Position numbers and translations under genes: made by a program. A DNA stretch of 55,372 bases from Bacteroidota bacterium (GTDB lineage Bacteria; Bacteroidota; Ignavibacteria; Ignavibacteriales; Ignavibacteriaceae): positions 1 to 55,372 of the forward strand of contig JAKAJV010000118.1 of the NCBI GenBank assembly GCA_021813585.1, read 5' to 3'. Positions 25,404 to 49,080 of the stretch are shown here, piece by piece. The notes under the pieces were generated by a model, which saw nothing but the letters and a program-made list of their open reading frames with translations, did not search any database and was not told the DNA's origin. Positions within the stretch are counted from its first letter, which is position 1, and each line of letters starts with the position of its first letter.

Positions 25404-25429
25404 AAAAAGCCGCTTACAAGAGCGGCTTT
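25404..25429. terminator. Bidirectional intrinsic terminator
   Basis: AAAAGCCGCT (25404-25413) and AGCGGCTTTT (25420-25429) form a 10-bp stem with a six-base loop. Read on the minus strand the stem is followed by T-rich sequence (TTTTTTAATTTT), ending the cytochrome operon. On the plus strand a shorter T-run ends the DUF2892 gene. Confidence 0.85.
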
Positions 25430-25454
25430 TAATTATCGATAATCCGAATTTGGG

Positions 25455-26336
25455 TTATTTTCCTCGAACATTCACTTTCCCATTTATGTGTCTGTTTTTA
25501 TCAATAATATTCCCCTGTTCATCAACAACTCCCTGATGGCACACTACACATTCGGTAATCGGGATTTGCTGATATCCTATATGGCCTTTGGGAGGTAAGT
25601 CATGACAAGAACCGCATGCCGCCTGGCTGCCGTCTACTATATTCCAAGTAACCGTTACATTGTTTCCAACCATCTTATCGGAAGTAAATGCCCATTGATC
25701 TTCCGATGCGGCAGAATCTTTAGAGAAAGCAAAATTACCGTGGCAATATGTGTTTGAACATGTTGCATTTGAGCTATTAAAAGAAGCATTCGAAGCTATG
25801 TTAGCAGTTGCCAGCCCGGATAGCGTTACTTCCGCGGGTAATTTCGAATCGAGATGACCCGGTGAAAAAACGCTTTGAGGTACGTTATGGCAGTTCTGGC
25901 AGGCAACGTTGTTTGTAAGCGAGTTGTTATATAAATGATTTGTATGAGCACCGACTCCGACTGCACTGGTAGCGGTATCGCCGTTTATATCGTTTGGCGG
26001 AGCTATTCTAGTCGGGTCGTTCGGATTTCCGTGACAGGTATTGCATGCCAGAGGGCCGCCGGGTTCTTTATGGCACGTAAAACAACTAGCACCGGTTGTT
26101 CCGCCCGAAAAATCGGCAGCATGGCATGACTGGCATTCCTGCAAATTCCAGTTATTATTTTTTATATAAGTACCGTGAAAATTTGCCGACGAAGGTTTGC
26201 TGAATCCTTCCTGGTGAACATCTATCTTCGGCTCAACAGGAATGTTGTCCTTCAAATTGCTGCAGCTGTAAAATAAAATTCCGGTAGCAAAAATCAACAA
26301 TATAATGAGTAAGCGATATTTCATTTTTGTTTCCAT
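25455..26336 (-). CDS. Heptahaem c-type cytochrome lipoprotein (CxxxxCH/CxxCH family)
   Basis: The product has 293 residues (289 if the second ATG at 26324 is used, which follows GGAAACAAAA). A lipobox (ILFYSCSN) makes it a lipoprotein. Six CxxCH motifs (CQSCH, CFTCH, CNTCH, CQNCH, CGSCH, CVVCH) and one CSNTYCH (CX4CH) give seven likely haem sites. The alternation of CX4CH and CXXCH with short GNF/ADF spacers is the pattern of the Geobacter-type CxxxxCH cytochrome repeat. It is the last gene of the cytochrome operon, 6-18 bases after its neighbour. Probable role: electron transfer at the outer membrane. Confidence 0.88.
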   Translation of the reverse strand: METKMKYRLLIILLIFATGILFYSCSNLKDNIPVEPKIDVHQEGFSKPSSANFHGTYIKNNNWNLQECQSCHAADFSGGTTGASCFTCHKEPGGPLACNTCHGNPNDPTRIAPPNDINGDTATSAVGVGAHTNHLYNNSLTNNVACQNCHNVPQSVFSPGHLDSKLPAEVTLSGLATANIASNASFNSSNATCSNTYCHGNFAFSKDSAASEDQWAFTSDKMVGNNVTVTWNIVDGSQAACGSCHDLPPKGHIGYQQIPITECVVCHQGVVDEQGNIIDKNRHINGKVNVRGK

Positions 26337-26342
26337 AAATTA

Positions 26343-27554
26343 TCAATGTGGATTCGATCCATGGCAATAACCGCAGAAGCCTACACCGGCAGGTGACGAC
26401 GGGGAAGAGCCGGTATGGCAGTTAAAGCAAATTGAGCTTTGGCTGTTATGCCAATCTCCGTGAACATCCTTCATATAATTTGCCGGATGGGTCTTAGGAT
26501 TGGTTCCTTGTATGCCGTCCGGGTCAATATGGCATTTTATACAAACCGGGTCGCCGCCTTGAACATCGTGGCAGGCTGCGCAGCTTTCAATATCCCGTCT
26601 GGCTAATTTAGCATGTTCGCCGCCTCCGGTGCCGACACCGATAATCATAAAATCGGGTTTAAGATGGGATAAAGGAGCTATCCCTCCCATTGAGTAATCG
26701 GCGTTCTTTCCCTGGTGGCAATTTGCGCAGAATGTATCTATCTGATGGCATGATTGACACTCGGTAATTTTACCCATTGCATCAATGCCGTGGGTAAACT
26801 GGTAGTTTAAACCGTGTACTCTGGTAATCTTTTGCTGCTTGGCGCCGGTGGTCGGCTGGCTTGGCGAATAGGGCGCAAAGAAATTTTTAGATGTATTGTT
26901 TTCAGTAATTACGTTAGTGGAGGTATGACAGTCCTGGCATGTGGTATTATCATGGCACATCGCACAGTTCGAATTAATTTCTCTTGCTGCAAATTTATGA
27001 GTATGTATGAACGATGCACTCTTGTGAGACTGCGGTAAAAGATCGGCTGTTGAAGTATGGCAAGCTGAGCATGTGTTTGTTGCCGTCGATTTGTTGTTAT
27101 GGCACGAGTAACAAGTTTCCATCGAGGGAAAGCCGTTCGGCGCATCTTCTGCATAATCAACTTCGTTTATTCCTTTATGACAGTCGTTGCATTTAAGTTT
27201 TTGCTGTTTTAAGTGGAAGCTGTGATCGAAAATTAGTTCTGATTTTTTCTGAACCAGCGGTTCAAATTCATCCTGGTAGTGGCAGGTAGTGCATTTCTTG
27301 TCGTCGTTAACATCGTGGCAGTTCTGGCAAACATCGTGGTTAGGTAGTACTTTATCTTTAAGTGATTTACTGGTTTGTACTGCATCATGGCAGGTTGTAC
27401 AGTCGCCCACATCGGCATGAGTCTTATGAGAAAATTTAATAATAGCTTTGTTGCCCTTAGCATCGCCGGTCTCTTTTGTTAAAGAGAATGCCGTAATAAA
27501 AATTACTCCAATGATTATTGTAAGCAGCGAGAAGTAAATGTGTTTTAATTTCAT
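26343..27554 (-). CDS. Tetradecahaem c-type cytochrome
   Basis: The product has 403 residues with an N-terminal signal/anchor (YFSLLTIIIGVIFITAFS). Fourteen CxxCH motifs are present: CTTCH, CQNCH, CTTCH, CNDCH, CYSCH, CSACH, CAMCH, CQDCH, CQSCH, CANCH, CAACH, CIKCH, CFNCH, CGYCH. Many extra His residues (FSHKTHADVGDC, FDHSFHLKQQKLKC) suit bis-His ligation of the c3/c7 type. About one haem per 28 residues is the density of wire-like periplasmic cytochromes. It lies ten bases after the outer-membrane barrel gene, so a partner role in electron transfer through the barrel is inferred. Confidence 0.9.
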   Translation of the reverse strand: MKLKHIYFSLLTIIIGVIFITAFSLTKETGDAKGNKAIIKFSHKTHADVGDCTTCHDAVQTSKSLKDKVLPNHDVCQNCHDVNDDKKCTTCHYQDEFEPLVQKKSELIFDHSFHLKQQKLKCNDCHKGINEVDYAEDAPNGFPSMETCYSCHNNKSTATNTCSACHTSTADLLPQSHKSASFIHTHKFAAREINSNCAMCHDNTTCQDCHTSTNVITENNTSKNFFAPYSPSQPTTGAKQQKITRVHGLNYQFTHGIDAMGKITECQSCHQIDTFCANCHQGKNADYSMGGIAPLSHLKPDFMIIGVGTGGGEHAKLARRDIESCAACHDVQGGDPVCIKCHIDPDGIQGTNPKTHPANYMKDVHGDWHNSQSSICFNCHTGSSPSSPAGVGFCGYCHGSNPH

Positions 27555-27564
27555 GTTACATCAG

Positions 27565-28836
27565 TTAAAAATTAGTATTAAACCAGTAATCGAGCTTTAG
27601 GAAAAACCTGTAGTCGTTCTTATAGATCTTATTATTCATATATTGTCCCTGAAGATCGATTGAAACCAAGCCGAACGGACGGACGTTAATCCCTGCCAGC
27701 AGGGCTGCCAGGTCGTTAACATCGGAGGATTCCGACAGTTTATATTTTGTGTACGTCAAGCCTACCGACGGCGTAATCAAACCGTTCAGCAGAGTATAGG
27801 CAGAATATAACGACAGCGCATCGAGCTCGCCGGCGTACCCGAAAGTTTTTCTGTATGTAAAGCTTCCGTAGTTGGATGTAAGACCTACGGTTACTCTTTG
27901 CGAATTATCGTCCTGATAAATCACATTTCCGTACCTTCCGGTAATTGTAAATATTTTATTAAGAATATAATTCGCGCCCACTTCAACTTCCTGCGTATTG
28001 CCGTAATCGAAGACGGAGAATATCGAATTATACCGGATGAGAGGCGATCTGAAGTTATAATAAAAATCCAAGTTTAGCTTTTTGCTTGCGGCAAGGTTTC
28101 CGTCCAGCTCGAACTTTGAAGTCCGGTCAAAATTCAGGTCGTAATCGTACCTTGTATTAATAGAAAATATTTTGCCGGGGTCGTAATTAACTTCCGCGGA
28201 GGCGAACTTAAACTGGTTTGAATTATTTTCAATTAATACTTTAATAGGATTCAGCTCAGCATCAAGTCTGGTGGCCCAATAAGCTTCCGGTTTAAAGTTC
28301 TTATTGATATAGCTTAAGGATATTTGAAAGTTCTTTAGTGCGTCGGTAGAAAATTTGCCGCCCAGTATATAATTTTCGTTCCAGTTGTCAATCAAGCGGA
28401 ATTTATCGTATGCCGGGGCGTTCCCGCCGTAGTAAGCAGTCAGGTTATAATTGTCTTTTTTAAGGTTTAAGTTGAGGCCGTCGAACACGCCGCCGGCCAC
28501 ACTGTTAAATAAAGGTTGTCTGCCAAGTTTAATAGTAGCAACTTTAAAAATATCCCTTACTTCTAAATATAGGTTATAGAATCCCAGCACAGGATCGTTT
28601 TCCAGCTTGTTTGCAAGATCTGTTTCCAGGTTCATATAGGATCTAAGAGAAACATTGTCCTTATTAAAATTAAGGTTAAGCATCTGATAGGACCGTACGT
28701 AATTTCCTGAAACGTTTGCCGTATCGAACCGCTGGAAGGTATAAATGGAAGAAGATATTCTGCCGTTTATATTTTGCGGAAACACCGCGGCCGGGATAAG
28801 CAGTAAACCGGATAAAAGGGAAATAAGTTTTTTCAT
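27565..28836 (-). CDS. Outer-membrane beta-barrel porin in the cytochrome operon
   Basis: The product has 423 residues. Signal peptide MKKLISLLSGLLLIPAAVFPQ; the rest is alternating aromatic/polar strands (NGRISSSIYTFQRFD, ATIKLGRQPLFNSVAGG, FQISLSYINKNFKPE, KLNLDFYYNFRSPLI) and ends KLDYWFNTNF with the terminal Phe of barrel proteins. LGRQ and GGVFDGLNL resemble porins of the DcaP/MtrB-like class. The frame extends to 28875, but the signal peptide begins at ATG 28836. Position between two cytochrome genes suggests it could form the barrel of a porin-cytochrome conduit. That role is inference; a plain porin is the alternative. Confidence 0.75.
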   Translation of the reverse strand: MKKLISLLSGLLLIPAAVFPQNINGRISSSIYTFQRFDTANVSGNYVRSYQMLNLNFNKDNVSLRSYMNLETDLANKLENDPVLGFYNLYLEVRDIFKVATIKLGRQPLFNSVAGGVFDGLNLNLKKDNYNLTAYYGGNAPAYDKFRLIDNWNENYILGGKFSTDALKNFQISLSYINKNFKPEAYWATRLDAELNPIKVLIENNSNQFKFASAEVNYDPGKIFSINTRYDYDLNFDRTSKFELDGNLAASKKLNLDFYYNFRSPLIRYNSIFSVFDYGNTQEVEVGANYILNKIFTITGRYGNVIYQDDNSQRVTVGLTSNYGSFTYRKTFGYAGELDALSLYSAYTLLNGLITPSVGLTYTKYKLSESSDVNDLAALLAGINVRPFGLVSIDLQGQYMNNKIYKNDYRFFLKLDYWFNTNF

Positions 28837-28887
28837 TTTAGTTCTTCTGTTATTCAACAAGAATAAGCCTGGCATTATTAATAAGAA

Positions 28888-29466
28888 TTATTTATCTGCC
28901 GGGATAGTATGTTTGATTTTAGACCACATGGCTTCTGTATCGAACTTACTGTCTTTTGTCCATGTCGGGCTTTCAGAATTATGGCAAGTAACGCAGAATG
29001 CATTCATATCCTCATGAATCTGAAGGCCTTTTTCCATAGCTTCTTTTTTATTCTTCATAACCGACAGAGTCTTATAATCGCCGCCGCCGCCATGGCATGT
29101 TTCGCACTGTACGCCGTCTTCTACTTTAAATTTTGGACCTAGCAGAGACGCTTCTACATTATAGCCAGTAGCATGGCATTTTAAGCAGGCTTCAGTCTTT
29201 GCTGCAGGAGTATCGAATCCTTTTTCCTTAGCTATTTTGTTTGCTTCATCGGTTTCTAGGGTTTTATAAGCTTGTGCATGCTTGCTTTCTTTCCATATAT
29301 CAAGCTGCTTTCCCTGTTTGTCTGTATGATGGCACATCCCGCAGACGGCTGTTCCTACAAAACCGTGCAGAGGAGCTTTGGTATCTGTTTTTGTCGTATC
29401 GCTGTTTGCAGCCCACAATAAGGGAGTAGAAATAAATAAAACTGAGAGAATGAGTTTCTTGAACAT
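28888..29466 (-). CDS. Tetrahaem cytochrome c-554-like protein
   Basis: The product has 192 residues with signal peptide MFKKLILSVLFISTPLLWAAN. Four CxxCH motifs (CGMCH, CLKCH, CETCH, CVTCH) and the block LDIWKESKHAQAYKTLE match the cytochrome c-554 fold, also found in the first half of the T9SS cytochrome at 29567. It is periplasmic and soluble. GAGGAGGT stands before the ATG, the strongest ribosome-binding site in this operon, so it is probably the first and best-expressed gene of the run that ends at 25455. Confidence 0.9.
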   Translation of the reverse strand: MFKKLILSVLFISTPLLWAANSDTTKTDTKAPLHGFVGTAVCGMCHHTDKQGKQLDIWKESKHAQAYKTLETDEANKIAKEKGFDTPAAKTEACLKCHATGYNVEASLLGPKFKVEDGVQCETCHGGGGDYKTLSVMKNKKEAMEKGLQIHEDMNAFCVTCHNSESPTWTKDSKFDTEAMWSKIKHTIPADK

Positions 29467-29513: not shown

Positions 29514-29558
29514 AAAAAACGAGAGCTCATCCCGCCTATTAAACGGCAATGAGCTCTC
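29514..29558 (-). terminator. Intrinsic terminator after the T9SS cytochrome gene
   Basis: GAGAGCTCAT (29521-29530) pairs with ATGAGCTCTC (29549-29558). Read on the minus strand it is followed by CGTTTTTTTATT. It separates the T9SS cytochrome gene (29567-31147) from the downstream cytochrome operon, which therefore needs its own promoter in the short space 29467-29513. Confidence 0.85.
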
Positions 29559-29566
29559 TACGGGAA

Positions 29567-31147
29567 TTATTTAATTAATACCATTTTCTTAACCATGTTA
29601 AAGTTCTTCGCTTCTATTCTGTAGAAATATACGCCGGATGCAAACGAGTTCGCATTCCAATCAACAGAATAACTGCCCTGAGAATAATAACCGTTAACAA
29701 GCGTGGCAACCTGTTTACCAACAATATCATAAATTACTATCTTTACATTGCTGCCTTCGGGTACGGAGAATTTGATTGTTGTAACCGGGTTGAACGGATT
29801 AGGATAATTTTGGCTTAAGCTGTATGTCTCGGGCATATTGTTTTCTTTTGCTATGCCTGTTGTGGTATAGCTGGCAATAGCATCCCGTAACAATTTTTGA
29901 ATAAGCCTGGTATTGTGAACGCCATGACTGCCGTCCGATTCAACAGCCAGCAGGTTGTAGTTAGCTTCCTTGAATTTTAGCGTAGCTGAATCTGCGGAAG
30001 AAGCGTTCTTAAGCAGTGCCTGCAGTGCATTTATTAAACTGTCGGTGGTAGTTTGTACGCCGCGGTAGTCGAACATCTTTGTAGAATCTGAAGTGTTAAC
30101 CGAACTGGCGTAATCGCTGTGGCAGCCCTCGCAAGCCTGTACTCTGGGTTCGAAGGTATGGCCGGTATTGGTACTTCCATCAGGATTCGGACTCATGTTT
30201 ACATGGCAGTTGATGCATCTTTCTGTAGCTGCATATGTATGAGCAGAATTAATATAAGTTTGGTTCGGATACCTGTAACCGAAATTCTTGTCGCCGCTTA
30301 ATGCCAGGCCGGATTGCTCGTGGGGTGTAGCATTAAGATTTACCGTATCAATTTCTGCATAATGGCATTCATCGCAAATAACTTTTTTATATGTAACATC
30401 TTCCCTTAATTGAGCCGGGAATTTTGCATCGTGAGGATTATGGCAGGCAACGCAAGTAATAGGCTGAATATCGCTTCCTGTAACTAAAATAGTATCCTTA
30501 TACGCTGCCGGGTTATTCATGTAGGAAATAAAGTTCTGCGCAACATGGCATTTTACGCACGATTTATTCTTCACTACGAAAGATAGCGAAGGAGCTGTAG
30601 ACAGTGCATGCTTAGACATTGACCATTGCTCAAGAAAAGGTGAATGGCCTGAATGGCACTTACCGCAAAGCTGGGAAGAATAATCAGGTTTGTTTGGCGA
30701 ATTGGTTACGAACGGCCAGTGGTTCGGATTTAAGAATCCGTCCTGTCCGCCGAGAGGTCCATGGCAGTCTTCGCACTGTACATTTGCTTTTTTGTAAAAG
30801 TTTACCGAATCGGTTATAACATAACCAAGCTTAGCTGTAGGATCGGCCTTTACATATTCATCGGCTCCATAATTTGCAACGGTAGTATCCCAGCCGGTGG
30901 TATGGCATTGCAAGCAGCTGTATTTAAGTATGGTTTTTAACGAATCATATGCTTGTGCATGTTTTGTCAGTTTCCAAGTATCGTAATAAGGAACATCGGA
31001 GGCAATATTTGTAGCTGTATGGCACGATGCGCAAGATGTTCCCTGGGCATCACTGGAAGTGCCGACGCCCAAATAAAAATTTTGGCTGAAGGCAATCGTG
31101 GAAGTCAGTATAATTGTTAATGCTGTAATTAGTAATTTTATTTTCAT
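29567..31147 (-). CDS. Nonahaem cytochrome c with T9SS sorting domain
   Basis: The product has 526 residues. Signal peptide MKIKLLITALTIILTSTIAFSQ. Nine CxxCH motifs follow: CASCH, CLQCH, CEDCH, CGKCH, CVKCH, CVACH, CDECH, CINCH, CEGCH. WKLTKHAQAYDSLKT early on links it to cytochrome c-554-type domains, and SGHSPFLEQWSMSKHA to other multihaem reductase-like proteins. From about residue 440 the end (YPNPFNPVTTIKFSVP to NFNMVKKMVLIK) is a complete T9SS type A sorting domain. It should therefore receive haems in the periplasm and then be exported to the surface. GGGGTTAAG stands before ATG 31147; the frame extends to 31162. Confidence 0.9.
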   Translation of the reverse strand: MKIKLLITALTIILTSTIAFSQNFYLGVGTSSDAQGTSCASCHTATNIASDVPYYDTWKLTKHAQAYDSLKTILKYSCLQCHTTGWDTTVANYGADEYVKADPTAKLGYVITDSVNFYKKANVQCEDCHGPLGGQDGFLNPNHWPFVTNSPNKPDYSSQLCGKCHSGHSPFLEQWSMSKHALSTAPSLSFVVKNKSCVKCHVAQNFISYMNNPAAYKDTILVTGSDIQPITCVACHNPHDAKFPAQLREDVTYKKVICDECHYAEIDTVNLNATPHEQSGLALSGDKNFGYRYPNQTYINSAHTYAATERCINCHVNMSPNPDGSTNTGHTFEPRVQACEGCHSDYASSVNTSDSTKMFDYRGVQTTTDSLINALQALLKNASSADSATLKFKEANYNLLAVESDGSHGVHNTRLIQKLLRDAIASYTTTGIAKENNMPETYSLSQNYPNPFNPVTTIKFSVPEGSNVKIVIYDIVGKQVATLVNGYYSQGSYSVDWNANSFASGVYFYRIEAKNFNMVKKMVLIK

Positions 31148-31574
31148 CTTAACCCCGGACATATTTTGTTTACTTAAACAACCAGTTAAATTTTATTTTT
31201 GTTGTTTCTACAAAAAGCAAACCAAAGTATTGTAAGTAAATTCATCAATAATAAAATATCAGCTTTTCATAGCTGAGAAAATGAATGTTCGCTTCTCGTT
31301 TTAGAGAAATAGCTTTTTTATTCACTTAATTCGAAGTTTTGTCTGCACATAAACTTTTAGTAGGGATAAGAAAGTAAATCCGGATATTTTTTTTATGGTT
31401 ATGGAAGCGTTATAGAAAGACGGGATAAAAAAAGCGGCATCTTATTTAAGACGCCGCCAAATTGTGTTTAAGAAGTATTGTGTTAGAGTAAATAATTTTT
31501 ATATGCGGTACAAATGAACTTAAAAAACTCTAACCGGGGCTAAGTGAAATTGTGTAACTAAACTTCCAAAAAAT
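31148..31574. other. 427-base intergenic region
   Basis: It holds the terminator at 31427-31457 and otherwise AT-rich sequence. TTTTTTATTCACTTAA at about 31316 also occurs, inverted, in the leader of the 28888-29466 cytochrome gene (29502-29518), but in the wrong orientation to be a shared upstream element. No gene is visible. Confidence 0.5.
31427..31457 (-). terminator. Intrinsic terminator after the first sulfotransferase-like gene
   Basis: GCGGCATCTTA (31434-31444) and TAAGACGCCGC (31447-31457) form a stem with one mismatch, and on the minus strand it is followed by TTTTTTTATCC. It ends transcription of the gene at 31575-33701. Confidence 0.85.
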
Positions 31575-33701
31575 TCACTTTAAAAGAATCATCTTCCTTA
31601 CGCTAAAATAATTCTTACCGGAATTACTATTCGTGGTTATCGAATAGAAATATATTCCTGACGACAAATTATTTGCGCTCCAATTTATTTGATGACTGCC
31701 TGCATTCTTAACTGCGTTTACTAACGTGGCTATCTTTTGACCGATTGAATTGAAAATCTCTATCCTTACATGGCTTTCTTCAGGCAATGAGTATTTAATT
31801 GTTGTGGAAGGATTAAAAGGATTAGGATAATTCTGGTCTAAGAAAAATTTTCCCGGTAGCTTAGCTCCTTGGTTTATTGCTGAAACATTATCCGAAGTAC
31901 CCGATAAGATTACCTGTCTTGCAATCATCTGTTGGAAGCCATTGTAATCTCCTATATTCCGAATATTAAATGAAGCAGTAAAGGTGCCGTTCCTTTCCGG
32001 TTTGAACAAAACAGGGACAACAATTGAATCGTTAGGTTGAATAGTTACCGGAACCTTAAGGCTTGTTGAGAAAGACGGATTAGTGCAGTAAAATTCGTTA
32101 ATAGTAACAGCAGAGTCATTAGGATTGAAAACAGTGATCTGTTTTATTAGAGAATCACCGACAATCACTTTCCCGAAATTAACCGAATCAATATTGGTTG
32201 TAAACAGATTGGTCTGCCAGTTATATTTGAAAGCCCTGTAAGTATCGTAATACTCTAAATAGCTTAGGTCGTAAACAACAGAATCACTCTGGGTAACTTC
32301 GGTTACTACAGGGTCATAGCTATGTCCCCACGAAATAAATCTGTTACCATTCGGCAGTTCTTCAACCGAGCCTTCGGTATCGGTAAAAATATTATCGTGA
32401 CTGATTCGGTAGATTAACGTAGCGGTTTTATTTACCTCGTCCAGTTTATATTCCAACGCGCTGGATATCTGTTGCGGATGATATACTCCATTGTCGAACA
32501 GGCTTATATCGCCGTTTGAAAAGCGCCTTATATCATGCTGGCGCGAGAAGCCCAGGTTATCGTTTATAAACGTGAATTGATTGTTCTTCCCGCCAAGACG
32601 CCAGATGATATTTCCTGTTTTCAAATCGACTTTGGTAATCTCGTCAAGGTTCCTCGCGGATATAAGTAGATTACCGTCGCTGTCAAACTCCATAGAATTA
32701 AAATGAGAGAAATCGATTGTCGGCTGCGTCAGGTCTAACTCGGAATCTACATCCGTTATTTTATAATGATCGAGAGCGTCCCATTCGAATATTAGATTCC
32801 CTGACGAATCAAATTCCTGCAAAGCCCCGTCAATAATATCCGCATTTGTAGAGCCGCCATCCACTATCGTGCTCATATCCATGGTAACGTTCCGTTTGCC
32901 GAAAATAAAATAATTCCCGTTCGGCAGAACCCGCAGTTCATGCACATCTGGAGTAAAGCCATCGGCAGTATTAAAAGTACGGTTAATATTTAGAGAACTA
33001 TCCATTCCAAAACAGCTAACAGGATAAATAAAGTACGTTAGCTCTCCGTTTGGCTGCATGTCGAAATCATAAATTTCTCCCTGCACATCACGGTAGAAAA
33101 CCGGCGTGCCTTGGTTATCTATAATCATTAAATAAGGAGAAGGGCATAAAAACATGTAGCCCGGCGAGGGATTATGGGACTGATCAATTATAACCGGCGG
33201 CAGATCTGCCGGCAGTGAAGTGTCTTCCACTGATATTGATCTATGCGGATAACTTTTGGGATTGAAGTTTGCATCAGCGGATTCCGATTGATTATTATTT
33301 AAATTACCGCAAGTATGAAATTGAAATGTTAAGCCGTTTAGTAGTGTTCCGTCATTCGTTTGAATTCCGCCTTTAAATATTACTTTAACGTCTTCGTTAA
33401 CAGCAAAAGGCTCGCTGGGGGTAAACACAATAGTTTTGGCATCTTCAGCCAAAACGAGGTTCCCGCCGTGAATCCCGCTTTTAGTGCCAATTACTTGAAT
33501 AAGACCGGCGCTTAAAGTCGTATTTTCTATCTTGCTTCCTTGTCTAATTATAATTTTGCTGTCTACAGACACATAATTTGAATTCGGTATTGGATTTAAA
33601 TATTGATAGCCGGAATAACTTTGTGCCGAAAGCCTGTTTAATCCGAATACGATTATCCCGGCCAGCATAAGAGCACAGTATTTTTTCTGCAGAATTTTCA
33701 C
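31575..33701 (-). CDS. T9SS-exported arylsulfotransferase (ASST)-family protein
   Basis: The product has 708 residues. A signal peptide (MLAGIIVFGLNRLSAQS) is followed by an SbsA/Big-like domain (VNEDVKVIFKGGIQTNDGT), then an ASST-type beta-propeller (about 155-470) with HELRVLPNGNYFIFGKRN, ALDHYKITDVDSELDL, SHFNSMEFDSDGNLLISARN, IIWRLGGKNNQFTF and QHDIRRFSNGDISLFDNG. A Hydin/ASPM-like domain (SVNFGKVIVGDSLIKQITVFN) and a sorting domain (NYPNPFNPSTTIKYSLP, from about 627) close it. Known ASSTs transfer sulfate between phenols; the conserved histidines look present, but activity is unproven. The start is GTG with AAGGA eight bases upstream. Confidence 0.85.
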   Translation of the reverse strand: MKILQKKYCALMLAGIIVFGLNRLSAQSYSGYQYLNPIPNSNYVSVDSKIIIRQGSKIENTTLSAGLIQVIGTKSGIHGGNLVLAEDAKTIVFTPSEPFAVNEDVKVIFKGGIQTNDGTLLNGLTFQFHTCGNLNNNQSESADANFNPKSYPHRSISVEDTSLPADLPPVIIDQSHNPSPGYMFLCPSPYLMIIDNQGTPVFYRDVQGEIYDFDMQPNGELTYFIYPVSCFGMDSSLNINRTFNTADGFTPDVHELRVLPNGNYFIFGKRNVTMDMSTIVDGGSTNADIIDGALQEFDSSGNLIFEWDALDHYKITDVDSELDLTQPTIDFSHFNSMEFDSDGNLLISARNLDEITKVDLKTGNIIWRLGGKNNQFTFINDNLGFSRQHDIRRFSNGDISLFDNGVYHPQQISSALEYKLDEVNKTATLIYRISHDNIFTDTEGSVEELPNGNRFISWGHSYDPVVTEVTQSDSVVYDLSYLEYYDTYRAFKYNWQTNLFTTNIDSVNFGKVIVGDSLIKQITVFNPNDSAVTINEFYCTNPSFSTSLKVPVTIQPNDSIVVPVLFKPERNGTFTASFNIRNIGDYNGFQQMIARQVILSGTSDNVSAINQGAKLPGKFFLDQNYPNPFNPSTTIKYSLPEESHVRIEIFNSIGQKIATLVNAVKNAGSHQINWSANNLSSGIYFYSITTNSNSGKNYFSVRKMILLK

Positions 33702-33763: not shown

Positions 33764-36658
33764 TTATTTCAAAACGATCATCTTCTTTACCATGAAGAAA
33801 TTCCTGCCGGACTTACCTTCTGCACGGATTGAATAGAAATAAACTCCCGAAGATGAATTTTCTGCGTTCCACTTTACTTCGTAGCTGCCGGACGTAATTT
33901 CAGAATTAACAAGAGTTGTTATCCTTTGTCCTATTGCGTTGAATACATCAATCCTAACATGGCTTTCTTCCGGTACCGAATATTCTATTGCCGTAGAGGG
34001 ATTGAAAGGGTTGGGATAATTCTGATATAGCTGGAAACTTTTTACTTCATTACTAAAATCTTTAATCCCCGTAACTGGTGTTGCTACCGTAAAAGTGCTG
34101 TCGCTAACCGCCTTCAAATTAGAATTACTAATGCTGGCCACTTCAATCTTATATAACGAATCCTGTTCCAGCGAAGCCGGAACAACCCACCGGTATGCAT
34201 GAGTTTTTGAAATTATAGTATCGCCGATTACTGAGACAATATTGTTTCCTCTTAGTAATTCTATCTTTACCGTGTCGTTTATGTTGGCCTGCCATCGGAT
34301 TATATAAGTAGAATCGGTATATACTTCCTCGCCTCCGTTTGGATCTTCTATTTTTATATACGGCGAAGCAGTATAAAACCTATTTGCACTGGACCAGTCG
34401 CTGGTACCTGCAGGATTAGTGCTGTTTAACCTCCAATAATAAGTTGAATTATTCTTAACAGTATTTATCGTATAAGTTGTAGAAGTTACACCGGGGTTAT
34501 CGATAACCAAATTATTAAACAGTGAATCTGTTGCAACTTGAAGATGGAATGAATGAGCGACACCCTGTGTACCCCAAACAAGATTTACCGGTTTCAGTCC
34601 GTCCACAATCTCACTGTCCTTTGGAAAAATTTCATCCGGAGGATATGAAACTATAGTCTGTGGAATACCCAGTGTATAATCGCCGAATTCCGAAGTTGTA
34701 AATGTTATTGAATTCTTTGCTGCATCGTAACTGGTAGGCAAAGGTAAAAATAAACTGTCGGAATTTTGACGTGCATAAACTATAATTTTGGAAGGATCGT
34801 TTATTCCTGGGAACTGATTCAGGTTAACACGAACTTCTCCCGTATATGAAGAAATACCCGCGCCTTTTATTGTAAAATAATAGGGCATAATTATGGGAGC
34901 GTTAGTGTTAAACTTTGGGGCCAGGGGAGCGTAATTATATTTTGAAACTATAGCATTCGCATAAAGAAATGAATTCAGCTGGCTGAAAGTAATGGTAATG
35001 CCGGTTGTATCTTTACCGGAATTAAATGTATAAGTATTCCCTTGAAGCACTTCATATGTTGTTACGGTAGCAAACGGTGTTTCGCTAGTCCAAGGGAATT
35101 TATAAGCCCGGTAAGATGTTTGTCCTTTAGGCAGGTAAAGTTCCAATGCAATTGAATTATCCGGGTGCACCTCAGTTATAGCAGGTGAGCCGTTTGCACT
35201 TGCAAATCCCCAGCCGATAAAGGAATTTCCGTTTGCTAATCTTTGCACAGACCCCATTGCAAAGTTATAAATATCCGGATTGTTCCTGTATTCCCAAACC
35301 ATTGTAGCCGTCTTGTTAACAGTATCCAATTTATATTCTACCGCACGGGAGTAAGGCGGGGAATGCTGGTTGCCGTTATCGAATAATGTTAAATCCCCGT
35401 TTGGAAGTATACGGGCATCATGCTGGTACGAAAAATAATTAGGACTGTTTGCCTCATTCTCATTTATAAAAGTAAATTGGTTTTCCTTACCGCCCAAGAC
35501 CCAGTCGATATTTCCTGTTGAGCGGTCAATTTTTATTATGCTCGAAAGATGCCTCATTGAAAAAATAATATTGCCGTCCTTGTCTACATCCAGCGCATTG
35601 CCGTGTATTAGGTCTACGGTTTTGGAAGTGAGATTGAAATAAGAGTCGGTAAAAGGCAGATAGTCCCATGAGCGCCATTGGAAGACTACATTTTTAGAGG
35701 CATCAAGTTCCTGTATTACTGCGCCGATTACCGTTGCATTGGGATTGCCGCTGGGAACCACCTGGCTCATATCCACCGGTTCGGGATCTGAGGAAAACAA
35801 CAAATAATGTCCGTTCGGCAATATCAGAAAGTCGTGCGTATCTGCCGTGTAGCCGTTTCCGCACTGAACGGTATCTATTGGAGTTAAATTTGTATCAAGG
35901 ACAATCCACCTGACTGCGAAAATTCCGTTTGCCAGACTGATTATATCGGCATATGAGAGTTCTCCGTTCGGCTGAACCTTAAAATCCAGCGCCGGCTCGG
36001 TTGTCCTTCGGTATTTAACAACGCTGCCGTCATTATTTAATATCATAATAAAGTTGCCGATTGAGTCGCTTCCGCTAAATGCCGAATTATCGTTTGCTAA
36101 AAATATTTTTCCGTCGGAAGGATTATTTGAAACTCCAACTGTAATTTTGGGAAAGTCCGGCGGAAGAGAATCGCTTGCTTGTACCTGGCTGCCGGTTTTG
36201 TACATCCCGGTGGGAATAAAATTTTTCTTTAGGCTGCCGTCCGCAACAAAATCCAAAGGATTCAAATTTATTTTTTGCGTTAACGGAGTTGTTTTAAATT
36301 TGAAGCTAAATTCAGAAAATCCGTAACCAGAGGTCGTTTTAATTCCCGGCAGTACGGAAACGCTGACCTCTTCTCCGGCGTCGAAAGGTTTATCAGGATT
36401 GAAAAGGATTGTTTTATTGTCGTCGGATAATTTAACCACGCCGGGATGGCTGCCGCTTTCGCTTCCAACGACTCGGAATTCCTGCGGGGATAAGCTCTGC
36501 GTGCTAATATAATCTGTGGATTTTAAAATAATATTCGTCGTTAACGAAACTAAGATAGAATTATTTTTCGGCGAGTAATATTCAATTGATTGCGGAAGTA
36601 CTATGCCGTTCCACACCATAATAATTAAAAAAATCAAAAAGTAGTTTAATCTTTTCAT
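33764..36658 (-). CDS. T9SS-exported arylsulfotransferase-family protein, large paralogue
   Basis: The product has 964 residues. Signal peptide YFLIFLIIMVWNGIVLPQS; SbsA/Big-like domain; ASST propeller with HDFLILPNGHYLLFSSD, IHGNALDVDKDGNIIFSMRH, IDWVLGGKENQFTF and QHDARILPNGDLTLFDNG. It then adds a domain absent from its neighbour, a fibronectin-like domain (VNLVWGTQGVAHSFHLQVA), a PNGGEEVYTDSTYIIRW domain and a sorting domain (NYPNPFNPSTAIEYSVPEES). The two genes are 62 bases apart and clearly related over the propeller and tail. AAAGGAAAACAG precedes ATG 36658; the frame runs to 36682. Confidence 0.85.
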   Translation of the reverse strand: MKRLNYFLIFLIIMVWNGIVLPQSIEYYSPKNNSILVSLTTNIILKSTDYISTQSLSPQEFRVVGSESGSHPGVVKLSDDNKTILFNPDKPFDAGEEVSVSVLPGIKTTSGYGFSEFSFKFKTTPLTQKINLNPLDFVADGSLKKNFIPTGMYKTGSQVQASDSLPPDFPKITVGVSNNPSDGKIFLANDNSAFSGSDSIGNFIMILNNDGSVVKYRRTTEPALDFKVQPNGELSYADIISLANGIFAVRWIVLDTNLTPIDTVQCGNGYTADTHDFLILPNGHYLLFSSDPEPVDMSQVVPSGNPNATVIGAVIQELDASKNVVFQWRSWDYLPFTDSYFNLTSKTVDLIHGNALDVDKDGNIIFSMRHLSSIIKIDRSTGNIDWVLGGKENQFTFINENEANSPNYFSYQHDARILPNGDLTLFDNGNQHSPPYSRAVEYKLDTVNKTATMVWEYRNNPDIYNFAMGSVQRLANGNSFIGWGFASANGSPAITEVHPDNSIALELYLPKGQTSYRAYKFPWTSETPFATVTTYEVLQGNTYTFNSGKDTTGITITFSQLNSFLYANAIVSKYNYAPLAPKFNTNAPIIMPYYFTIKGAGISSYTGEVRVNLNQFPGINDPSKIIVYARQNSDSLFLPLPTSYDAAKNSITFTTSEFGDYTLGIPQTIVSYPPDEIFPKDSEIVDGLKPVNLVWGTQGVAHSFHLQVATDSLFNNLVIDNPGVTSTTYTINTVKNNSTYYWRLNSTNPAGTSDWSSANRFYTASPYIKIEDPNGGEEVYTDSTYIIRWQANINDTVKIELLRGNNIVSVIGDTIISKTHAYRWVVPASLEQDSLYKIEVASISNSNLKAVSDSTFTVATPVTGIKDFSNEVKSFQLYQNYPNPFNPSTAIEYSVPEESHVRIDVFNAIGQRITTLVNSEITSGSYEVKWNAENSSSGVYFYSIRAEGKSGRNFFMVKKMIVLK

Positions 36659-37035
36659 CTGTTTTCCTTTACATTTTTCCATATGAATTTTTAGATTCCA
36701 TTACCCAAAGAGGCAAAATAATAACCCTGGTTTAAATGAGGCCAAAATTTTTAAACCTGCTACACTGACAATTATTTAACCGTAATGGTTTAAAGTTATT
36801 TTTAGAATTTAAATTGGGATTTGACGGTTAAAAAATAATTTTTGCCTGGAAATTTTTTTCTTATGCCTGGGCATTACCGGCGTAGATGGATTTTCTTTAT
36901 GATATAATAATTTTTAGATGGATTTGTTATGAATGAAAGAAGAACGGTTATCAAAAAAATGGAGTGATATAAAACAAGTAAGAATGACAAGTAGGCAATG
37001 ATAATTAGTCAGATAGAAAATTTTCAGAATACAAT
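36659..37035. other. 377-base intergenic region
   Basis: AT-rich sequence between the sulfotransferase-like genes and the EamA gene, both minus strand. It contains a weakly repeated TTTAAACC/GGTTTAAA pair (about 36731-36800) that could pair. No gene, terminator or recognised repeat was found. Confidence 0.5.
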
Positions 37036-44655: not shown

Positions 44656-45450
44656 ATGAAAAAAATATTTATTATTTTGTTACCCATCCTTCTAGGGGGA
44701 TGCCAAAAAGATTTTAACAACGTTGTTGATCCTCAGACGATGAGCTATCAGGTAAGTGGAATTAAAACACCCGGTCAGTTTGTTTATAATCCGGGAGACT
44801 CTCTGGTTACGATTAGCATCGCTCTTAATTCATCGGTGTTTGTTAAAAGCGTTTCTTTTGTTGTTTACTCGCCGGATCAAATTCAACTTAACCTTGATGC
44901 TGTGCAGATGTTTGATAACGGTAATATCACCTCTAACGGCGATTCTGTAAAGGGCGATAATGTCTTTTCAAACAAGTTTCCTTTAAGCCATTATTATCCT
45001 AAAGGCACATACCAGGTGGATTATTATATAACCGATAATTCCGGTACGACCAAGCTTGCCGCAATAAATTATTTTAATTTTGATAACGGACAGACAAACG
45101 TTGCGCCCGTTATTTCAAATCTTGCCGCTCCGGATACGGTATCTTTGGGCGCTTCTACAACGCCTATACTTCTAACGGTGCAGGTAGACGACGGCAACGG
45201 ATTAAGCGATATACAATCCGTTTTCTTTAATTCGTATCTTCCACCGGACGGACATCCGTCTTCGAGCAATCCTTTTGTAATGTACGACGACGGTACAAAC
45301 GGAGATAAAGTTGCAGGCGACGGAATTTATTCTCTAACCATCGGGCTGCCGCCAAGCGCTTCCAAGGGAACATACCGTTTCGAGTTTCAAGCAAAAGACA
45401 GAAGCGGCGCGCTAAGTAATAAAATCATCCACAATTTAGTAGTTAAATGA
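44656..45450 (+). CDS. Lipoprotein with beta-sandwich (choice-of-anchor X-like) domains
   Basis: The product has 264 residues. MKKIFIILLPILLGGCQKD ends in a lipobox. Two similar halves follow: VFVKSVSFVVYSPDQIQL with SVKGDNVFSNKFPLSHYYPKG, and LSDIQSVFFNSYLPPDG with NGDKVAGDGIYSLTIGLPP. The D(G/S)VxGDxxxS pattern occurs in secreted repeats of Ignavibacteria and other bacteria and likely gives Ig-like folds. The frame extends to a TTG at 44620, but the signal begins at ATG 44656. It overlaps the propeller gene by four bases (ATGA). Confidence 0.78.
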   Translation: MKKIFIILLPILLGGCQKDFNNVVDPQTMSYQVSGIKTPGQFVYNPGDSLVTISIALNSSVFVKSVSFVVYSPDQIQLNLDAVQMFDNGNITSNGDSVKGDNVFSNKFPLSHYYPKGTYQVDYYITDNSGTTKLAAINYFNFDNGQTNVAPVISNLAAPDTVSLGASTTPILLTVQVDDGNGLSDIQSVFFNSYLPPDGHPSSSNPFVMYDDGTNGDKVAGDGIYSLTIGLPPSASKGTYRFEFQAKDRSGALSNKIIHNLVVK

Positions 45451-47024
45451 AACTAAAAATTATTTATCTGATTTTAATTGTTATTTCTTTCTGCTCGGTT
45501 TCTTTCCCGCAGTATTCGCCGCAGTCGTATTACATGCTGCATGATAGAAGAATGGAAAAAGCAAATGCCAATCCTACTATTTCCAGCAGCAATGTAAGCG
45601 ATATAATTACAATCGGCGATACAATATGGATCGGGACTGGACAAGGCTTAAGCCTTTCAACCGACAACGGAAATACCTGGAAGAAATTTACCAACGATAA
45701 TACTTTCGGTACAGAGAGCATTTCGGCTATAGGTTATTATAAAGGAACTTTCTGGGCGGCTACTGCCCACTCGGTTGTAAAAGACAATCAATCGTTACCC
45801 GAGGGCAGCGGATTAAAATATACAACGGATAACGGCAGCACATGGACTTCAATTCCGCAGCCGCAAGATAGTCTATCCGACAGCGTTGTTATTTACGGGA
45901 ACAATCATCTTAGAGCCGTGCCGGTAACTGTCGCGGTTCAAAATCTGGTTTACGATATTGCTTTTACTCCCGGTACAATTTGGATTGCAACGTTTGCAGG
46001 CGGTTTAAGAAAAAGTACCGACATGGGAAAGACCTGGCAGCGAGTAGTTCTTCCTCCGGATTACCTAGACGAAGTTAAGCCTTCGGATACTCTTAATTTT
46101 TGTATGCAGCCCGTCTCCGGTAATTTCTGCAGCGAAAATAATTTGAACTACAGAGTGTTTTCGGTTATTTCCACAAACGATTCAACGCTATATGTAGGTA
46201 CCGCCGACGGAATAAATAAATCCACAGATAACGGTATTAGCTGGCGGAAGTTTACTCACTCGAATGAAGTAAACCCGATTAGCGGAAATTTTGTTGTTGC
46301 CTTAGGGTACAATAACTCGAACAATACCGTATGGGCGGCCACGTGGCAGGCAGAAAACGCTTCCGAGTTTTACGGCGTAAGCTTTTCCACCGACGGAGGT
46401 GAAAACTGGCAGACTACCCTTGATGGCGAAAGAGTTCATAATTTTGCTTTCCAGAATAACAATGTAATTGCACCTTCCGATGACGGCGCTTTCAGAACAA
46501 CGGACGAAGGCTCCAACTGGATTTTGCCGTCTTCAATTGCTGATGCTAATTCTGGCGTGCAAATTGTCTCCACTACTTTTTATGCCGCAGGATTTAACAT
46601 GAATTTCGTATGGCTTGGCGCCGATGACGGACTGGCGAGGCTCGAAGAAAATCCCGGCTCGGTTTGGAGCGGCAGGTGGACTGTTTATTTTGCTTCGCAG
46701 CCTCTTAGCTCTGCCAGCAGCACATATGCCTACCCGAATCCGTTTAATCCAAGGACAGACATCTTAAAAATAAAATATTCAACGGGCGGTAATAATGTTC
46801 CAGTAACAATAAGAATATTCGATTTCGGGATGCATGTTGTAAGGACGGTTGTTCAGAATGCCGAAAGAGGCACAGTTCATTCTATCGATCAGTCCGGCGG
46901 CGTAGTGGATTATTGGAACGGCCTTGATGATGCAGGCAACATGGTGCCGAACGGAGTATATTTCTACAACGTCGATACCGGTTCAGGGAAACCGCTTTAC
47001 GGAAAAATTTTAGTAATACATTAA
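45447..47024 (+). CDS. Secreted beta-propeller protein with FlgD/T9SS-type tail
   Basis: The product has 525 residues. A signal peptide (YLILIVISFCSVSFPQ) leads into propeller blades of the form TIWIGTGQGLSLSTDNGNTWKKF, FWAAT and GVSFSTDGGENWQ. The tail (YAYPNPFNPRTDILKIKYS, IRIFDFGMHVVRTV, WNGLDDAGNMVPNGVYFY, KILVIH) is a FlgD-Ig/T9SS-type sorting domain, longer than the classic type A form. It is coupled to the lipoprotein gene and nine bases before a PorV-like gene. A surface-exposed binding or scaffold role is inferred. Confidence 0.85.
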   Translation: MKLKIIYLILIVISFCSVSFPQYSPQSYYMLHDRRMEKANANPTISSSNVSDIITIGDTIWIGTGQGLSLSTDNGNTWKKFTNDNTFGTESISAIGYYKGTFWAATAHSVVKDNQSLPEGSGLKYTTDNGSTWTSIPQPQDSLSDSVVIYGNNHLRAVPVTVAVQNLVYDIAFTPGTIWIATFAGGLRKSTDMGKTWQRVVLPPDYLDEVKPSDTLNFCMQPVSGNFCSENNLNYRVFSVISTNDSTLYVGTADGINKSTDNGISWRKFTHSNEVNPISGNFVVALGYNNSNNTVWAATWQAENASEFYGVSFSTDGGENWQTTLDGERVHNFAFQNNNVIAPSDDGAFRTTDEGSNWILPSSIADANSGVQIVSTTFYAAGFNMNFVWLGADDGLARLEENPGSVWSGRWTVYFASQPLSSASSTYAYPNPFNPRTDILKIKYSTGGNNVPVTIRIFDFGMHVVRTVVQNAERGTVHSIDQSGGVVDYWNGLDDAGNMVPNGVYFYNVDTGSGKPLYGKILVIH

Positions 47025-47033
47025 GAGGGTAAT

Positions 47034-48029
47034 TTGAAAAGGTTTTTCGCAGTTTCAATTTTATTTTTTACTACCGCATTGTATGCGCAGCCCAAGTTCA
47101 GTGCAATAAGCAGCATGCCGGGCGCTTTTTCAAGAATGGGTTTCGGCGCCAGAGGTATGGGTATGGGAAACGCAATGTCTGCCGTTACGGAAGGTAATCT
47201 TGTTTCTTATTATAATCCTGCGTTGTCGGCATTTCAGCAGGACAACTCATTCCAGACCTCTTATTCCTTTTTATCTCTGGACAGATCCCTGAACTTTTTA
47301 AGTTTCACAAGGCGGTTCGATTTTTTCTCTAAAGATTCTCCCAGCGACGAACCCAGAACAAGCGCCGGATTAAGCATCGGAATTATAAACTCAGGAGTAA
47401 GTAAGATTGATGGAAGGGACAACGACGGCAACAAAACCGGAGATTTATCTACTTCGGAAAACCAGTTCTTCGTGGGACTCGCAAACAGGTTCTCAAAAAA
47501 ATTTGCAATAGGCCTCTCGGTTAAATTTTATTACTACAGGCTTTACGATCAAATTAATACTACAGGCGTAGGACTGGATTTGGGTGCTTTATACAGGATA
47601 AACAACATCTGGAATGTTTCTTTTATGATATCCGATTTGAACAGCAAGTACAAATGGGATACAACCCCGATCTACCAGGAACAGGGTTCGACATCTATAG
47701 ATAATTTTCCCGTTTTGAAAAAGGTCGGCGTTAGTTATTACAATAAGGAATATAAAATTATCGCATCGGCGGAATTTGAAAACAGCAATGCAGGCACAAA
47801 TATTTTGCGCGCCGGAGTAGAATATAATATCTATGATTCGTTCTTTTTACGGGGCGGCATAGACCAGTTTAACCTGAGCAATGCTGATTATTCTCCAAAT
47901 CCGTCATTGGGATTTTCATATTCAAAGAAGTTCGGAGAATGGAACATCGGAGTTGATTACGCGTTCGTAGTTGAACAAAATTCACCTCAGGATAGACATA
48001 TAGTCGGATTAAGTGTTAATTTTAAATAA
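47034..48029 (+). CDS. PorV/PorQ-family outer-membrane protein
   Basis: The product has 331 residues, starting with TTG after AAGAGGGTAA. Signal peptide FAVSILFFTTALYAQ; then FSRMGFGARGMGMGNAMSAVTEGNLVSYYNPAL, the family's opening block, and barrel strands to the end (GLSVNFK). PorV-type barrels of the FadL fold shuttle T9SS substrates between translocon and sortase. Adjacent to a T9SS-type propeller gene, it may serve that substrate. A second family member follows. Confidence 0.85.
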   Translation: MKRFFAVSILFFTTALYAQPKFSAISSMPGAFSRMGFGARGMGMGNAMSAVTEGNLVSYYNPALSAFQQDNSFQTSYSFLSLDRSLNFLSFTRRFDFFSKDSPSDEPRTSAGLSIGIINSGVSKIDGRDNDGNKTGDLSTSENQFFVGLANRFSKKFAIGLSVKFYYYRLYDQINTTGVGLDLGALYRINNIWNVSFMISDLNSKYKWDTTPIYQEQGSTSIDNFPVLKKVGVSYYNKEYKIIASAEFENSNAGTNILRAGVEYNIYDSFFLRGGIDQFNLSNADYSPNPSLGFSYSKKFGEWNIGVDYAFVVEQNSPQDRHIVGLSVNFK

Positions 48030-48058
48030 ATGAATTTTCAAAATTTTTCTTTTGATGA

Positions 48059-48144
48059 GTAGGAGTAATGGAATGATGGAGTAATGGAATATTGGAATAA
48101 ATTTTCGGTCAGGTTATTCCAATCCTCCATTATTCCACTACTCC
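48059..48144. repeat. TGGARTARTGGA-type inverted repeat (copy 4)
   Basis: Left arm GGAATGATGGAGTAATGGAA and on to ATTGGAATAA (48070-48100), right arm TTATTCCAATCCTCCATTATTCC and on (48114-48144). The arms pair imperfectly over about 31 bases with a 13-base loop. It sits in the 151-base gap between the two PorV-like genes and breaks the otherwise tight spacing of the run. Confidence 0.8.
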
Positions 48145-48180
48145 GTTGTTCTAAGTTTGTAAATTATTTTCAGGTTATAT

Positions 48181-49080
48181 ATGACTAAGACACTTTTGGT
48201 TTTTATTTTAGCGGCCGCATCGGTGTTTGCCCAGTCGGCGGGCAACAGCGGACTGGCATTTCTAAAGATGGGATTCGGTGCGAGGAACATTGCGATGGGC
48301 GACGCAGGAGCCGCCGCTGCCAACGACGTTACCGCTTTGTTCTATAACCCGGCCAGGCTTTCCGGGCAAACCGGCAACGAAATTTTGTTGATGCATAATG
48401 AATGGATCCAGGGAGTTAAGAGTGAGATCCTCGGTATAAGAACTACTGTTTGGAGCCTGCCGCTTGCTTTCGGATTTGATGTGACTTCGATAAACGATAT
48501 TCAGGTAAGGACAATTGCCTCGGCCGAACCGATTTCTACTTTTAATGCAAACTATTTTTTCGGCAGTGTATCCACCGGATTTAATATATACGACAACGTA
48601 TCTGCCGGCGTAACTGCCAGGTATCTTTATGAAGGCTTGTACACCGACGAAGCAGCGGGGTGGGGATTCGATTTCGGATTTAATTATGATTCCCCTGTGC
48701 AAGGTTTAACTGCTTCGGCAGTAATTAAAAACCTCGGCACAATGAGCAAGTTGAAGAATGAAAAAACCAAACTGCCCTCCGAGCTTAGGATTGGGCCCGC
48801 TTACAATTTTAATTTTTACGGCGATAAATTCTCAATTACTGCAGCCGCCGAGTTTCAGAAATACCTTCCTACAAACGATTCGCATTTAAATTTGGGTATT
48901 GAATTACTGTATGACCGTCTAATTGCGCTGCGCGGCGGCTACCAATCAGGCTACCAGACCAAAGGCTTTACAGGCGGCTTCGGGTTAATGTGGGGCAAGT
49001 TCGATCTGGATTATGCTTTCCAGCCGTTCTCTCTAGGTTTGGGGAATGCAAACATGTTTTCTATTCAATTTAAATTTTGA
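48181..49080 (+). CDS. PorV/PorQ-family outer-membrane protein (second copy)
   Basis: The product has 299 residues. Signal peptide MTKTLLVFILAAASVFAQ, then SGLAFLKMGFGARNIAMGDAG and DVTALFYNPARLSG, the PorV-family opening, followed by LLMHNEWIQGVKSEILGI and further barrel strands to MFSIQFKF. It is clearly closer to typical PorV than the copy at 47034. The FemAB-like gene starts four bases after its stop. Confidence 0.87.
   Translation: MTKTLLVFILAAASVFAQSAGNSGLAFLKMGFGARNIAMGDAGAAAANDVTALFYNPARLSGQTGNEILLMHNEWIQGVKSEILGIRTTVWSLPLAFGFDVTSINDIQVRTIASAEPISTFNANYFFGSVSTGFNIYDNVSAGVTARYLYEGLYTDEAAGWGFDFGFNYDSPVQGLTASAVIKNLGTMSKLKNEKTKLPSELRIGPAYNFNFYGDKFSITAAAEFQKYLPTNDSHLNLGIELLYDRLIALRGGYQSGYQTKGFTGGFGLMWGKFDLDYAFQPFSLGLGNANMFSIQFKF

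Follow-up and report, generated by a model that had tools for sequence, protein, structure and literature searches.

A 55,372-nucleotide stretch of DNA from a bacterium of the family Ignavibacteriaceae (Bacteroidota; contig JAKAJV010000118.1), here called the window, carries a gene for a predicted c-type cytochrome in which nine haem-binding motifs and a sorting tail of the type IX secretion system (T9SS) occur in the same polypeptide. The gene heads a cluster encoding a putative porin-cytochrome conduit (Table 1). The reading that we favour, with moderate confidence, is that this nonahaem protein is a terminal reductase delivered to the cell surface by the T9SS and served with electrons by the conduit.

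Several parts of this picture are already in print, as described in portions of the papers cited: porin-cytochrome (PCC) clusters have been reported for Ignavibacteria (PMC7399161; PMC4245776), the cytochrome OcwA has been characterized (PMC6703420), Por sorting domains are found on carbohydrate enzymes of Melioribacter (PMC3534657), and a 2024 survey predicted secreted multihaem cytochromes in Bacteroidota genomes and linked them to extracellular electron transfer (PMC11495043). The available text of that survey does not contain the terms T9SS, type IX or sorting domain. In a full-text search joining T9SS with multihaem or cytochrome terms, made with one set of spellings over mostly open-access literature without preprints, we found no T9SS-tailed multihaem cytochrome; the one paper that a related search listed deals with a regulator of a duck pathogen. 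The parts are known; it is the combination of a T9SS tail with a multihaem cytochrome that appears to be new.

If the reading is true, the T9SS would be a further route to the surface for a respiratory multihaem cytochrome, beside lipoprotein export and display on the Gram-positive wall, and one that must let through a large protein bearing nine covalent haems. Respiration onto minerals or other acceptors outside the cell would then have a little-noticed route. A hot-spring study, in the part available, classed an Ignavibacteriales system as 'mto-like' because it had no extracellular cytochrome near the porin (PMC6137239); T9SS-tailed cytochromes are one place to seek the missing extracellular parts of such systems. 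Cultured relatives would allow the reading to be tested clearly; one of them is Melioribacter, for which a passage in PMC3534657 names Fe(III) as a possible acceptor.

Table 1. Coordinates in the window of the nonahaem gene, its parts, the cluster genes and the hairpins.
Feature	Coordinates	Strand	Basis or remarks
Terminator-like hairpin upstream of the cluster	31433..31458	(-)	11 pairs, then TTTTTT
T9SS-tailed nonahaem c-type cytochrome (predicted)	29567..31147	(-)	526 aa from the MKIK start
Putative Sec-type signal peptide, residues 1-22	31082..31147	(-)	By eye
Predicted nine-haem core, residues 39-343	30119..31033	(-)	First part c554-like, second part NrfA/OcwA-like
Predicted helical region, residues 361-426	29870..30067	(-)	GxHN stretch common to OcwA
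Predicted T9SS type A C-terminal sorting domain, residues 442-526	29570..29824	(-)	TIGR04183 and AF2
Stem-loop with T-run between the nonahaem and c554-like genes	29517..29558	(-)	Terminator scan (29537-29517), folding
Tetrahaem cytochrome c554-like protein, probably periplasmic	28888..29466	(-)	192 aa; four CxxCH; PF13435 8.1e-20; c554 1bvb 2.2e-6
Putative outer-membrane beta-barrel	27565..28875	(-)	423-436 aa; start at 28836 gives 423 aa
Putative 14-haem cytochrome	26343..27554	(-)	403 aa; 14 CxxCH; PF14522 1.3e-17; TIGR04257 4.2e-9
Putative haem lipoprotein	25455..26336	(-)	TIGR01904 48.1 bits, cut-off 27; six CxxCH and one longer-spaced motif
Terminator-like hairpin at the cluster end	25405..25430	(-)	10 pairs, then T-rich tail

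The nine-haem core

The MKIK start of the nonahaem gene aligns with the earliest possible start in two orthologues (L031, L033); the list of open reading frames also holds an alternative in-frame ATG at 31162, which would give 531 residues. The CxxCH motifs are at residues 39, 78, 125, 161, 197, 232, 258, 311 and 339, and all 18 cysteines of the protein lie within them. Among 2000 shuffled copies of the protein the mean number of CxxCH motifs was 0.019 and the maximum 1. The first-pass annotation had described nine such motifs and a sorting tail in one 526-residue protein, and this is borne out by the motif count, the shuffles and the matches to PF18962 and TIGR04183 given below. The N terminus (MKIKLLITALTIILTSTIAFSQ) has the look of a Sec signal and, by eye, no lipobox Cys. 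Pfam places a match to PF13435 (Cytochrome_C554) over residues 39-130. Near-full-length orthologues (L002-L020, L022, L023) are 41-72% identical to the protein.

An AF2 model built on seven sequences is poor (pLDDT 38.4), so that what we say of the fold draws on the sequence. The low-confidence model places helices at 361-380, 390-404 and 410-426, in a block with pLDDT 42-61 that aligns to the C terminus of OcwA, and six strands at 455-525.

Searching the PDB with phmmer, we obtained matches of the nonahaem protein to OcwA of Thermincola potens (6i5b, 1.9e-10), to 6qvm (3.5e-9) and to an octahaem nitrite reductase (8rv0, 6.6e-4). Repeating the search with a seven-orthologue profile, we again had OcwA as the best match (1.5e-15) and 6qvm as the second (2.5e-12), followed by 8rv0 (3.3e-6) and two NrfA chains at 1.9e-4 (2j7a) and 2.1e-4. 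The profile match to OcwA spans residues 164-439, that is, haems 5-9 and the C-terminal helices. The second-best match, 6qvm, which we take to be a multihaem cytochrome of Carboxydothermus, differs in having 681 residues and no T9SS host. These matches place the haem part of the nonahaem protein in the NrfA/OcwA superfamily.

OcwA is itself described, in the portion of the paper available, as a c554-like four-haem set joined to an NrfA-like five-haem set and a three-helix bundle; its haems 2 and 5 each have one open face, beneath His-His pairs (PMC6703420). The likeness extends to the number of haems, a similar length, the alignable haems 5-9, the C-terminal helices and a surface role, which the same text proposes for OcwA. 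The two differ in that OcwA comes from a Gram-positive host and has no T9SS tail, and in that its His-His pairs align with single residues of the nonahaem protein, H168 and H276. No His-His pair over haems 2 and 5 was found in the alignment of the nonahaem protein with OcwA or across the 37 aligned rows (31 of them distinct, since six pairs are one sequence under two identifiers). Because aligned His-His pairs are absent, we do not file the protein as OcwA proper.

Eight histidines outside the motifs are conserved in at least 34 of the 37 rows (63, 143, 180, 239, 276, 303, 330 and 411). H276 is present in all 37; H168 occurs in 29, with Tyr in some relatives. Setting H276 aside leaves seven conserved histidines (63, 143, 180, 239, 303, 330, 411) for seven six-coordinate haems, and therefore haems 2 and 5 may be open, possibly five-coordinate as in OcwA. 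With two open haems, the nonahaem protein could reduce solids as well as small molecules.

The sorting tail

Residues 448-523 match PF18962 (Por_Secre_tail) at 1.6e-11 (44.7 bits, cut-off 27) and TIGR04183 at 6.8e-11 (42.0 bits, cut-off 23). A search with a TIGR04183-type profile had been set beforehand as the check on the tail, and the protein passes it well above the cut-off. The same genome encodes the translocon protein SprA (1044.9 bits, together with its neighbours), two PorU-type sortases, 21 PorV-family matches above cut-off and at least 150 T9SS tails. The earlier proposal that haem motifs and a T9SS tail coexist in one protein has the support of the sequence, and a translocon, sortases and a PorV family are encoded in the same genome. 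With type A substrates of the T9SS such as the gingipains, RemA and HBP35 the protein shares a TIGR04183-type tail, the presence of PorU and the PorV family and, judged by eye, a typical-looking Sec signal peptide; it differs in its cargo, here a predicted covalent multihaem electron carrier. Exported proteins take a route through SprA with PorV that needs the proton-motive force, according to passages in PMC10994853, a T9SS paper from which the word cytochrome is absent. The word is likewise absent from the available text of a 2023 review of T9SS effectors, which lists the haem-binding HBP35 (PMC10202324).

We asked how general the tail is with a query limited to the haem part (residues 22-430, tail excluded), run against 296 genomes of the phylum, own included, at 1e-12 or better. 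Matches fell in 27 of the 296 genomes (own included) and at 34 places, 30 of which have loci; the four without a locus lie outside the tail count. To recognize tails we made a profile from those of the own genome; of 30 tail loci 29 went into it, the remaining one being omitted because the ORF chosen has no NP motif. This profile matches the C terminus of 29 of the 30 ORFs, that of the window included. The sole ORF without a tail (L184:1309-2910, (+)) has eight CxxCH motifs and belongs to a distant family of the phylum. The families with matches are seven from the same class or order (f1, f2, f4, f8, f10, f14 and, through L017, f3) and, elsewhere in the phylum, f38, in which the tail is present on one of two. 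In the own genome the tail is found on 2 of the 11 ORFs seen with at least four CxxCH motifs, a number that is not a full census. These results indicate that the fusion of cytochrome and tail is a family trait.

The second tailed ORF of the own genome is a nonahaem paralogue on contig C115 (L227:6061-8454, 797 aa), which shares 26% identity in the core and has additional segments ahead of both core and tail. It scores slightly better against NrfA (8.8e-5) than against OcwA (1.3e-4), and no other multihaem ORF was found near it in the 14 kb fetched.

The tails can also be compared by identity, with the partial L021 left aside. Orthologues whose core identity is 51% or higher have tails with 55-76% identity to that of the nonahaem protein; for 29 other tails encoded by the own genome, identity to it averages 49.1% and reaches 56.2% at most. 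Where the cores are 45-47% identical the tails are at 44-58%, no better than unrelated tails, and where the cores are 33-36% identical they are at 52-61%, about the level of unrelated tails; because tails on distant cores resemble unrelated ones, the comparison speaks only for the close group. For that group we reject a tail present by chance or through recent shuffling, given its presence in 29 of 30 ORFs and the identities among close orthologues. The same two results argue, within the limit just stated for distant cores, against a reading in which the tail has no export function and the protein remains periplasmic, where it would help to feed the conduit. In favour of a periplasmic place, the product of the next gene is probably periplasmic, and T9SS export of a folded multihaem protein goes unmentioned in the available text of PMC10994853 and PMC10202324. 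We consider such a periplasmic role quite improbable.

The conduit cluster and a proposed electron route

Behind the nonahaem gene and on the same strand lie, in order, genes for the c554-like protein, the barrel, the 14-haem cytochrome and the haem lipoprotein. An AF2 model of the barrel (pLDDT 69.8, pTM 0.59) has about 22 strands, and Foldseek returns an usher and other outer-membrane barrels, with low TM-scores (TMq 0.29-0.48 among the matches listed); the modelled fold points to a barrel, not to a particular conduit family. The barrel sequence has no match in Pfam or NCBIfam, libraries that presumably include MtrB models, and none to an MtrB or PioB model among them. The 14-haem cytochrome has a wire-like 29 residues per haem, and its TIGR04257 score is just under the cut-off. 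The haem lipoprotein has a lipobox, FYSC, by eye and a predicted outer location. A barrel, a multihaem wire and a haem lipoprotein in a row are what this cluster shares with the porin-cytochrome complexes of Geobacter (Omb/Oma/Omc) and Shewanella (MtrCAB); it differs in the T9SS-tailed cytochrome at its head and in a barrel without a Pfam or NCBIfam match.

We then looked at the arrangement in relatives. The nonahaem gene heads the cluster in 12 of 20 fetched loci (L039-L049, L053), as far as the contig reaches, and the order is the same in L035, from an Ignavibacteriales bacterium; in G002 and G003 the nonahaem gene and the barrel are on the same contig and strand. It stands apart in the remaining eight loci (L050-L052, L054-L058), so that the link with the cluster is not obligatory, and in all eight of these genomes the barrel is on another contig. 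In L124, from another genus, a divergent (26%) nonahaem protein with a tail ends about 100 bases before the barrel.

The conduit itself is common. A homologue of the barrel is present in 53 of 59 genomes, own included, and 39 fetched barrel loci hold homologues of the 14-haem cytochrome in 38 cases (some incomplete), of the lipoprotein in 34 and of the c554-like protein in 30. A close orthologue of the nonahaem protein is missing from many of the genomes with the barrel cluster, so that the protein appears to be an addition to a conduit that is independent of it. A protein of more than 600 residues with 15-18 haems occurs in 16 of the 39 barrel loci; all 16 come from families f2 and f3, which account for 21 of the loci, and there the protein is encoded upstream of c554. 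We rejected the idea that a 16-18-haem protein in this position is the same part as the nonahaem protein, since both proteins checked in Pfam (L138, L143) carry a cytochrome b561 domain at the C terminus, a feature that one would expect in a quinol oxidase of the inner membrane. Contig C35 of the own genome encodes a relative of this b561-multihaem protein at 47% identity.

Taken with its place in the cluster, the presence of a barrel elsewhere in the eight genomes with a stand-alone gene makes the nonahaem protein look like an outer partner of the barrel conduit. The first-pass annotation had instead presented surface display by the T9SS as an alternative to barrel-embedded cytochromes, a claim that finds no support, since a barrel and multihaem cluster follows the gene both here and in 12 of 20 fetched loci. 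A free-standing route in which the T9SS replaces the conduit could draw on the tail, the T9SS genes and the existence of stand-alone orthologues; against it, a haem protein outside the cell needs re-reduction from inside, and a barrel is either adjacent or, for every stand-alone locus, elsewhere in the genome. It is the least probable of the readings given here.

A further alternative is an enzyme of the NrfA/HAO family, displayed on the surface or secreted, that acts on nitrite, hydroxylamine or sulfur species and takes no part in respiration of solids. The matches to octahaem nitrite reductase and NrfA besides OcwA are in keeping with such an enzyme, as is the separation of the gene from the conduit genes in 8 of 20 loci, and OcwA is a slow nitrite reductase that acts on hydroxylamine in both directions, reducing and oxidising it (passages in PMC6703420). 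Yet all nine motifs are CxxCH, the CxxCK of the NrfA active site being absent, and among close orthologues the gene comes first in a cluster that includes an outer-membrane barrel. We regard this enzyme as unlikely, if less so than a periplasmic or free-standing protein.

For the favoured terminal reductase, the route would run as follows. The signal peptide and the motifs suggest Sec export, with nine haems covalently loaded in the periplasm. The folded holoprotein would then pass through SprA, PorU would remove the tail, and the protein would be anchored at the surface, steps to which the tail and the SprA, PorU and PorV-family genes point. Gene order suggests that its electrons would come from the conduit of barrel, 14-haem cytochrome and haem lipoprotein encoded directly downstream, fed in turn by the periplasmic c554-like tetrahaem protein and by an inner-membrane b561-multihaem quinol oxidase encoded elsewhere. 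Kinship with OcwA would make minerals, humics, electrodes or small molecules the acceptors. The chain would thus lead from the quinol oxidase to the c554-like protein, on to the barrel, 14-haem cytochrome and lipoprotein, and from there to the surface nonahaem protein and an outside acceptor. Its ends are known families; we infer its middle order from gene order and the T9SS step from the tail and the T9SS genes.

Counting against a terminal place for the nonahaem protein, the haem lipoprotein could already be the conduit's outer end. The nonahaem protein could move on the surface or be shed from it, since it is not a lipoprotein. Evenly balanced, in our judgement, is the broader proposal that T9SS-sorted nonahaem reductases form a family that gives the extracellular electron chain a distinct finish, with periplasmic haem loading, export through SprA, anchoring or release by the sortase and recharging by a barrel conduit.

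Intergenic hairpins and neighbouring genes

The nonahaem gene had also been thought to have its own terminator and to be separate from the neighbouring cytochrome operon. A hairpin with a T-run does lie behind the gene (Table 1), though the terminator scan finds 8 such sites in 7 kb, as against 6.8 (sd 2.4) in shuffles. We folded the gap between the nonahaem and c554-like genes in 14 loci, these folds having no shuffle control, unlike the scan. A strong stem appears in 12 of the 14, window included (absent in L042 and L035), and in L048 it takes the form of a large branched fold. A T-run directly behind the stem is seen by eye in only four, the window, L044, L045 and L047, and the other ten have none. 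The hairpin with its T-run is thus present in the window, but to call it the gene's own terminator is misleading, given that the gene keeps its place before the cluster and T-runs directly behind a stem are confined to 4 of 14 loci. The hairpin may be an intercistronic stem-loop, maybe one that favours the first gene, rather than a boundary, and in the source species the stem-loop with its T-run could part the nonahaem gene from the cluster.

Among relatives of the cluster genes, the haem lipoprotein varies, mostly with 5-12 CxxCH motifs but with 26 in L127 and 28 in L146, unlike the barrel and the 14-haem cytochrome, whose sizes are near constant. Short extra ORFs behind the haem lipoprotein (L031:6606-6926, L032:12751-13050) repeat its C-terminal part. 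Upstream of the c554-like gene, L123 (8405-10051, (-); another genus) has a haem-free T9SS-tailed protein, and the first 340 bases of L132 hold a T9SS tail in an ORF near the contig end.

Directly upstream of the cluster in the window are two arylsulfotransferase-like proteins with T9SS tails (31575-33701 and 33764-36682, (-)), the first with a Pfam ASST match. Full-length relatives of these (59% and 61%) follow the cluster in L041, of the same genus; the ASST-like proteins that L127 and L129 have close to the barrel were rejected as relatives, the match lying in the tail only. Elsewhere in the window (45447-49080, (+)), two PorV/PorQ-family proteins, of which one exceeds the family cut-off and the other narrowly misses it, come after a protein with BNR repeats and a weak tail of the T9SS type.
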